From a virus: a DNA stretch of 39,143 nt. Within the stretch, counting starts at the first letter, position 1. Each line of letters begins with the position of its first letter. The stretch lies in the IMG/VR virus record IMGVR_UViG_3300049432_000047, positions 1 through 39,143 of that record; one strand, written 5' to 3'. The translations under genes were made by a program, and so were the position numbers. The notes below the pieces were generated by a model. That model saw only the letters and a list, made by a program, of their open reading frames with translations. It was not told the origin of the DNA and ran no database searches. Shown in pieces: positions 37,613-38,586 of the stretch.

Positions 37613-38586
37613 CCACCGACGTAGTCGACCTCGACACCATCACGTTGCTGAGCGGCGGTCACAACACACGCGACGACGGCGTGTGCATCATGGAAGCGGT
37701 CGCCTGGTACGCCGGGGAGAACCACTCGGCAATGCCGGGATGCGTCTCCCCGCTGCTACGCAGCTACGGGATGACCTTCAACGACCGGCTACCCGACGAC
37801 CGACGGCAGGAACTCAAGCAGTTCATCCCCGCACTCGTTGGCACCGCAGGCGACGGCAGAGACGACATCCGCCGCCGAATCGCCGCCGAGTGGCTGTTCC
37901 GCGAGGCACTACCCGCATGGTTCGACCTCGCAGGCCTCACCGACGAAGCTGAAGAGGCCCGCACGACGACGAAGGTCGACTTCACCGACAAGAACTCGGT
38001 TCGAGCGGCGCTGAGGAAACTGGCCGACCAGGCGTGGAAGTTGCGCCTGGAGCGACGTAAGAGACTTCGCGAGCTCGTGCTCGAGGAGTTGCGCAAGCGC
38101 GGTGCTGTCGATGTCGCTGCCGCTGTCGATGTCGCTGCCGCTGCCGCTGCCGCTGCCGATGTCGCTGCCGATGTCGCTGTCGCTGCCGATGTCGATGCCG
38201 CTGTCGATGTCGCTGCCGCTGCCGCTGTCGCTGCCGCTGCCGCTGTCGCTGCCGCTGCCGCTGCCGATGCCGATGCCGATGCCGCTGTCGCTGTCGCTGT
38301 CGCTGTCGCTGTCGCTGCCGATGTCGCTGTCGCTGTCGCTGTCGCTGTCGCTGTCGCTGTCGCTGTCGCTGTCGCTGTCGCTGTCGATGCCGATGCCGCT
38401 GCCGCTGCCGCTGCCGCTGCCGCTGCCGCTGCAAGCAAGTGGGATGCGGCGTACAAGGCCGCTCGGAAGGTCTACGACAAGGCCTTCGCCGAGAGCGACG
38501 CGTTCGCGAAGATCCGCGAGTTGCGTGACGAGCAGATCGACCAGGGCATCGCCCTGTATGGGCGTCTCATCGAGGCAGCCGCTTGA
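37609..38586 (+). CDS. Ala-rich repeat protein of a phage/actinobacterial hypothetical family
   Basis: 325 residues. The N-terminal domain (1-160) is a known uncharacterised family marked by [19 protein letters not shown] and [20 protein letters not shown], then [20 protein letters not shown]. Members have a variable Ala-rich stretch next and a closing helix ([12 protein letters not shown]). Here that stretch (166-273) is encoded by 54 hexamer repeats giving only AV, AA, DV and DA dipeptides. The start is ATG 37609 in an ATGA overlap; the longer in-frame region upstream to 37252 belongs to other genes. Function unknown. Confidence 0.8.
38104..38427 (+). repeat. 54 tandem hexamers G[C/A]TG[C/T]C
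   Basis: Every six-base unit from 38104 to 38427 is GCTGTC (21 copies), GCTGCC (20), GATGTC (7) or GATGCC (6). Four positions never vary and the other two take only two bases each. Codon third positions are fixed, so no silent changes have collected, which points to recent expansion. All frames on the minus strand are open across it. Confidence 0.95.

Follow-up and report, generated by a model that had tools for sequence, protein, structure and literature searches.

The array of hexamers described here probably encodes the variable arm of a counter-defence protein distantly related to Tweety gp54, an arm tuned by the gain and loss of repeat units and by switching between words. The array lies in a viral DNA stretch of 39,143 nucleotides (IMG/VR record IMGVR_UViG_3300049432_000047, positions 1 to 39,143), referred to in its entirety as the window. 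On this evidence the feature is of the Tweety gp54 kind, in a two-codon version, and does not form a new category. What is new here is the two-codon A/D-A/V dialect, together with the breadth of the family; constancy of the third codon base had already been recorded for Tweety gp54 in the part of Pham et al. (2007, PMC2884959) that deals with this gene.

The hexamer array and its gene

The window is probably the complete genome of a siphovirus. Its ends (1-127 and 39017-39143) form an exact 127-bp direct terminal repeat, on which the judgment of completeness is based, and PHROGs assigned terminase, portal, head protease, major head, tape measure, tail fibre, endolysin, replication and methyltransferase genes within it. 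An open frame from about 38811 to the end of the record runs on at the record start, and looks Rpf- or lysozyme-like by eye. No near relative of the phage was found in the collections searched, which may omit the closest records. The gene that houses the array comprises the following features:

37609..38586, + strand: whole gene, 325 aa; its ATG shares bases with the stop codon of the ORF before it (ATGA), and homologues were retrieved
37609..38103, + strand: N-region, aa 1-165, with a conserved domain that is all-helical in the AlphaFold2 model and, by profile comparison, remotely homologous to the Tweety gp54 N-domain
38104..38427, + strand: variable arm, 54 hexamers GMTGYC encoding [A/D][A/V] x 54 (aa 166-273), from TRF and a word count
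38428..38433, + strand: one further, altered word (the 55th, GCTGCA) bordering the array, seen directly in the sequence
38434..38586, + strand: C-terminal region (aa 276-325) and stop, with a high-confidence predicted helix

Read in the frame set by the ATG at 37609, the hexamers supply 108 residues, preceded by the N-region of 165 aa and followed by some 50 residues of C-terminal region. A direct count over the 324 bp of 38104-38427 gave 21 copies of GCTGTC, 20 of GCTGCC, 7 of GATGTC and 6 of GATGCC, and TRF independently picked up the identical 54-hexamer array. An earlier sequence-only reading had described 54 perfect hexamers with two binary positions in these same proportions, and the description proved exact. 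All 54 hexamers have G, T, G and C at bases 1, 3, 4 and 6, respectively. Variation is confined to base 2 (C in 41, A in 13) and base 5 (T in 28, C in 26), and within a hexamer these two bases vary independently, as had also been proposed (Fisher p = 1.0). The order of the words is clumped: agreement at lag 1 is 27 of 53, against 16.2 in shuffles (p = 0.0004), and clumping is also detected at lag 3 (p = 0.0006).

The proposal that the tract is more than ordinary alanine bias was upheld by its codons. Third bases are constant for each slot in 108 of 108 codons, contrary to the codon usage of the phage; given the amino acids and the usage in 12 large ORFs of the same phage, the log10 probability of such constancy is about -65, and a chance origin is excluded. 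In those ORFs GCG makes up 41% of Ala codons but is absent from the 54 words, whereas GAT makes up 13% of Asp codons but is the sole Asp codon of the words. The confinement of GCT and GAT to one slot, and of GCC and GTC to the other, points to descent from a two-codon unit rather than to codon preference. The array is longer than a short read, and its exact length and order in the assembly could therefore be wrong.

For the window protein, AlphaFold2 predicted a confident all-helical N-domain (block-mean pLDDT 95-98 over aa 11-110) and a confident C-terminal helix (95-98 at aa 301-320), with the array helical at low confidence. A short-armed relative of 195 aa (L100) was predicted to form one compact domain that includes the C-terminal helix (pLDDT 93.5, pTM 0.87). 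Thus the view of the array that best fits these models is that of an insert separating two helices of a single domain and projecting as an arm. Foldseek searches with the two models returned no solved relative (best PDB E values 4.4 and 2.0). VIA-align gave Z scores of at most 7.5, with the top rows on low-confidence helices, and of at most 4.6 for the second model. This lack of a structural match is no proof of a new fold. BFVD yielded one match under E 0.001, the uncultured phage protein A0A6J5MX58, and weaker ones that included a protein of Gordonia phage OneUp (E 0.11).

A family of array-bearing proteins

The window N-region drew a single sub-threshold match from Pfam (HEAT_EZ, E 0.081) and none from NCBIfam, and a single-protein scan with this region found no relative. 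With tblastn at 1e-5, the window protein and three relatives (L010, L092 and L105) matched only the faecal scaffold MT835534 in the phage collection. Searching for runs of ten consecutive GMTGYC words yielded 34 stretches, about 11 of which show a window-like N-region by eye (8 of these were aligned with the window), the others being other Ala-rich or low-complexity frames. Viral contigs were scanned three times with profiles, which gave 228, 148 and 205 relatives in overlapping sets; the best 80 from each were retained. A profile scan of bacterial genomes added 12, including five from MAGs; the isolates with relatives belong to Microbacterium, Actinomycetospora, Nocardioides, Kribbella, Roseateles, Methylobacterium and Caldovatus. 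For counting, 258 loci were grouped into 177 clusters at 90% N-domain DNA identity.

Members of the family share a layout in which a conserved helical N-domain is followed, in most of them, by an Ala-rich tandem array and then by a C-terminal helix, which often terminates in L.DRMI-like residues (by eye). The N-domain motif is GGH(5)G.C.MEAVA..AGE..S..P.C.SP(9)ND(5)R, and the near-invariant positions among members are G, H, C, E, D, P, C, N, D, R and D-W. In the 130 closed clusters the array ranges from 2 to 223 codons, with a lower quartile of 62 and a median of 83. The contigs of 44 of 163 viral clusters stop inside the family gene, as would be expected if repeat arrays break assemblies, and the gene can now be flagged as a frequent breaker of viral assemblies.

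Exclusion of 58 of the 177 clusters (34 whose tract was shorter than 40 codons, 23 that had no single register, that is, had a majority codon under 0.62, and one with N) gave 119 arrays for analysis. The sequence-only reading had placed Ala-rich arms elsewhere in the family, and these were found; the hexamer scheme of the window gene, on the other hand, is not general, as a four-codon unit describes 95 of the 119 arrays and a two-codon unit 19. The four-codon unit is typically [D/A]AA[W/R/G], with the last slot spelled TGG, AGG or CGG, and GGG. Two-codon arrays with third bases T/C came partly from the GMTGYC scan, which selects those bases, so that their share is biased. When 14 two-codon or similar relatives were compared slot by slot, the IMG/VR locus L005, whose N-domain is 51% identical to that of the window, had the same two binary slots, A/D and A/V, with third bases fixed as T/C. 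Nine others (L006, L014, L019, L027, L033, L042, L050, L060 and L201, with L019 and L027 counted apart) differ from the window in having one fixed Ala slot and a single A/D/V slot. One of these, L201, comes from a Microbacterium allomyrinae isolate; its N-domain is 44% identical to that of the window, and its two-codon array, also with third bases fixed as T/C, has one stray codon in the scheme. Two binary slots are a dialect, found only in the window and L005 among the 14 relatives checked plus the window.

The relation to Tweety gp54 was approached through the N-domain. With an Actinomycetospora member (L204) as query, tblastn at E <= 1 matched Mycobacterium phages, mostly Tweety-like, at E 0.2-0.8. 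These matches are weak, and the link was therefore re-tested with N-domain profiles from which the repeats were excluded, one of 31 rows that include the window (A10) and one of seven rows from Mycobacterium and Gordonia phages (A9). Aligned by hhalign, the two gave a probability of 98.0 and E 2.4e-13 over 74 columns, with 24% identity in the aligned part; a local rerun gave E 1.9e-12, against 0.17-0.68 in eight column-shuffled controls. The PHROG profile phrog_13065 was matched by the window N-region alone (E 3.1e-5), by Tweety gp54 (1.1e-10) and by Gordonia phage Aphelion gp89 (5e-101), and at E <= 0.1 the N-domain was detected in phage records for Mycobacterium (148) and Gordonia (21). By these profile comparisons the window N-domain is a remote homologue of the Tweety gp54 N-domain, and it is in this domain that the homology lies. 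The window protein is, as judged from sequence, a distant member of the Tweety gp54 family in the wide sense, having an N-domain followed by an in-frame Ala-rich array with fixed third bases and amino-acid-changing variation. It was not placed in the strict Tweety gp54 subfamily, which has a 12-bp unit and an AAxx tetrapeptide with two invariant alanines, because the window unit is 6 bp and both of its codons vary. A search of the window record with phrog_3416 gave no match, but is uninformative, since the controls likewise matched nowhere; PADLOC had no match at 0.001 for the window protein or for Tweety gp54.

Several loci met during these searches depart from the family layout or add to it. 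Two stretches of contig IMGVR_UViG_3300037422_000215 (35,926 bp; L023 and L032) have the array near the start of one and at the end of the other, as though the assembler had opened a circular genome within the array and left these as its ends. One contig of 54,647 bp holds two copies of the family gene (L058 and L070), with N-domain DNA about 89-90% identical and arrays that differ. One short-armed family gene is followed, about 0.8 kb downstream, by a second tandem array with 27-bp spacing (L089, 5404-5824). In Nonomuraea gerenzanensis (11.85-Mb record; L037, 4962-5630) an N-domain homologue lacks a repeat array; no feature is listed there, and the gene table is incomplete. A different phage protein with a long A/D-rich array starts MAKKLYHMTP in L009 (5247-7007) and MGKKLYHMTP in L028 (913-1665, minus strand, reverse-complement numbering), and its N-region looks unrelated to the family by eye. 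In Caulobacter phage Cr30 (L303, 1399-2109) a protein with a Y/D-rich Ala array is close by eye to that of L030 (261-701), and has no PHROG match at E 0.001.

Turnover, selection and alternative explanations

It had been anticipated that units would be gained and lost in frame and that array length would differ between close isolates. Whole-unit change was seen elsewhere in the family, namely in F1 isolates and two of six near-identical IMG/VR pairs (different contigs, closed arrays). For L083 and L084, whose flanks are 99.4-99.8% identical, the only difference in the gene as fetched is one clean indel within the array, 468 bp long (39 x 12). L019 and L027 align over 3,954 bp and differ at just two places, both of which fall within the array: an indel of 12 bp, and a single T/C change that turns one of Val and Ala into the other. 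The arrays are identical in the other four pairs (L065/L073, L088/L089, L120/L121 and L106/L108, the last identical over 8,423 bp). In L082 and L095, from one metagenome, N-domain DNA is about 96% identical and the word orders differ before both contigs end. Among the F1 phages, Tweety, Taj, DeadP and KristaRAM are identical at 423 of 423 bases of N-domain DNA, and their genes, of 1125, 909, 1005 and 741 bp, differ by multiples of 12. The clumping of words in the window, together with the 12-bp and 468-bp indels in relatives, fits the repeated slippage and duplication first suggested, by slippage or by unequal exchange.

Across the 119 arrays, the variants at unit slots comprise 515 amino-acid-changing and 40 silent types. 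Silent types thus make up 7%, about a quarter of the 29.5% expected for single-base changes (binomial p 9e-39, a guide only, as array clusters are not fully independent). Nonsynonymous types outnumber synonymous ones in 119 of 119 arrays, and 91 have no synonymous type at all. Silent bases vary from phage to phage, and the 119 arrays show 28 different pairings of unit length with third-base code; the constancy of third bases is therefore a property of each lineage, reflecting recent amplification, rather than a DNA signal that has been conserved. What the family does conserve is its residue pattern and reading frame; no DNA word is conserved, and similar residue alphabets recur in different codon dialects.

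The reading we prefer, that of a tunable counter-defence arm, takes its function from the remote homologue. According to the relevant passages of two reviews (PMC9262239, PMC8549241), mutants that escape the (p)ppGpp-synthetase defence of Phrann gp29/gp30, and that of MichelleMyBell, have more or fewer gp54 repeats; the Phrann pair is described as related to CapRel in an account in PMC9712102. By analogy, the window protein would consist of a compact helical domain, built from the N-terminal region and the C-terminal helix and interrupted by a long Ala-rich helical array that would probably project as a hairpin or rod. Slippage or unequal exchange would add or remove whole in-frame units and reshuffle words, so that arm length and the Asp/Val pattern (elsewhere Trp, Arg, Gly, Ser or Tyr) could change fast while the frame is kept. 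We infer that the gain or loss of each unit would displace the arm by a constant helical step and alter its Asp/Val pattern. Residue variants would be held by selection and silent variants removed by turnover. The arm may then set which host- or prophage-encoded defence is neutralised, as is reported in those reviews for Tweety gp54 against Phrann gp29/gp30. The long-arm shape, and tuning by arm length or by word order, are likewise put forward as a model.

Neutral or near-neutral slippage in a helical Ala-rich linker, in which selection acts on overall composition alone (helix propensity, solubility) and neither length nor order has a function, is an unlikely account but one that explains several observations. 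Clumped words and whole-unit indels are expected from slippage alone, two mutations plus unequal exchange suffice for four words, the same array is kept in four of the six near-identical pairs, and array length in closed members runs from nearly zero to the longest noted above. The account falters on the silent variants, which should equal the changing ones per site and are instead depleted as described, on the recurrence of similar residue alphabets in different codon dialects, and on the reported change of repeat number in escape mutants in work on Tweety, as far as the cited review passages go.

Improbable, in our judgment, is a role as an accessory of a phage recombination module (RecE/RecT/Erf) or as an inhibitor of host recombination nucleases, with the array tuning that partner and not a defence toxin. 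Its support comes from gene neighbourhoods: the Aphelion N-domain homologue sits between RecE-like and RecT-like genes, a RecE-like gene lies about 1.6 kb from the Microbacterium copy, and exonuclease VIII-, RecE-, RecT-, Erf- or endonuclease/resolvase-like neighbours occur at 45 of 256 loci in a redundant set. This count was made with six query proteins, one of which, a cut RecE gene used with a stop in frame, is to be disregarded. Within the fetched and often short flanks, however, 211 of the 256 loci have no such neighbour; in the F1 phages sampled the neighbours are mostly small unknown genes, plus excisionase, antirepressor and WhiB genes, and the phenotype given for gp54 in the reviews' passages is counter-defence.

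It is very improbable that short-read assembly produced the 324-bp length and the word order by collapsing or expanding the tract. The array does exceed a short read, and contigs of the family often end inside the gene. Nevertheless, the same architecture is present in the Microbacterium allomyrinae isolate draft genome, with a 153-codon array, and in complete mycobacteriophage genomes, and collapse is unable to invent word structure. Least credible of all is the suggestion, also made in the sequence-only reading, of a DNA-level recombination hot spot or protein-binding array: the DNA periodicity in the window is perfect, but silent bases and unit length differ among relatives, leaving no conserved DNA word, while variation falls at codon positions 1 and 2 and frame and domains are conserved.

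Diversity-generating retroelements direct targeted amino-acid diversity to phage genes, through A-to-N changes in a variable repeat. A target of this kind was rejected, since base 5 of the hexamer is C/T only, with no A, and base 2 is A/C only; no reverse transcriptase was found among the 20 window ORFs scanned with PHROGs. A frameshifting simple-sequence contingency locus, an on/off switch whose unit is not a multiple of three, was likewise rejected, as 6-bp units keep the frame.

Comparison with known systems

In the literature as far as it was covered, Tweety gp54 stands as a puzzling case within one mycobacteriophage group, and a literature search found no wider family joined to gp54 in titles or abstract openings. 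The protein is now tied to a large metagenomic and bacterial family, which supplies many natural arm lengths and dialects, evidence across the 119 arrays that variation is selected for, and a confident compact model of the arm-holding domain. With so many natural variants, how repeat number tunes counter-defence becomes testable across them. A bolder proposal, which we offer tentatively and which may well be wrong, is that these proteins form a widespread counter-defence class, in phage contigs, actinobacteria and proteobacteria, in which the order of a few residue words, and not only repeat number, sets the defence that is neutralised; such arrays would be a heritable, rapidly re-tunable code with a dialect for each lineage.

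Variation in repeat number between isolates also occurs in VR2 of Bordetella phage BMP-1 bbp36, a dispensable gene, which the description in PMC2884959 allows to be likened to the present case; its 24-bp unit with spacers is unlike that of the window. Gordonia phage Aphelion gp89 (PHROG 13065) has its N-domain family in common with the window, but is only 174 aa, lacks a long Ala array and has recombination genes on both sides. In Gordonia phages, N-domain homologues without an Ala array were noted between RecE- and RecT-like genes (L302, 1480-2004) and after a RecE exonuclease (L304, 1480-1989). In Mycobacterium phage Ardmore, gp46 (L296, 1201-1851) has the Tweety N-domain with a frame change in the array region, so that the usual C-terminus is not read.

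The closest comparison is with Tweety gp54 itself (subcluster F1; matches PHROG 3416). The gp54 sections of Pham et al. (PMC2884959) report 48, 26 and 15 tetrapeptide repeats for Tweety gp54, Che8 gp57 and PMC gp51, respectively, and note, for Tweety gp54, that third bases are invariant and that the pattern is "consistent with selection for variation". The two proteins are alike in the N-domain, which is homologous by profile, and in a central, in-frame, Ala-rich array with invariant third bases and variation that alters the amino acids; in Tweety-like F1 isolates, moreover, array length varies by whole units while N-domain DNA is identical. They differ in the unit: Tweety has 12-bp units, AA[G/W/Q][S/Y], with two invariant alanines, and the window has 6-bp units, [A/D][A/V], in which both slots are binary.
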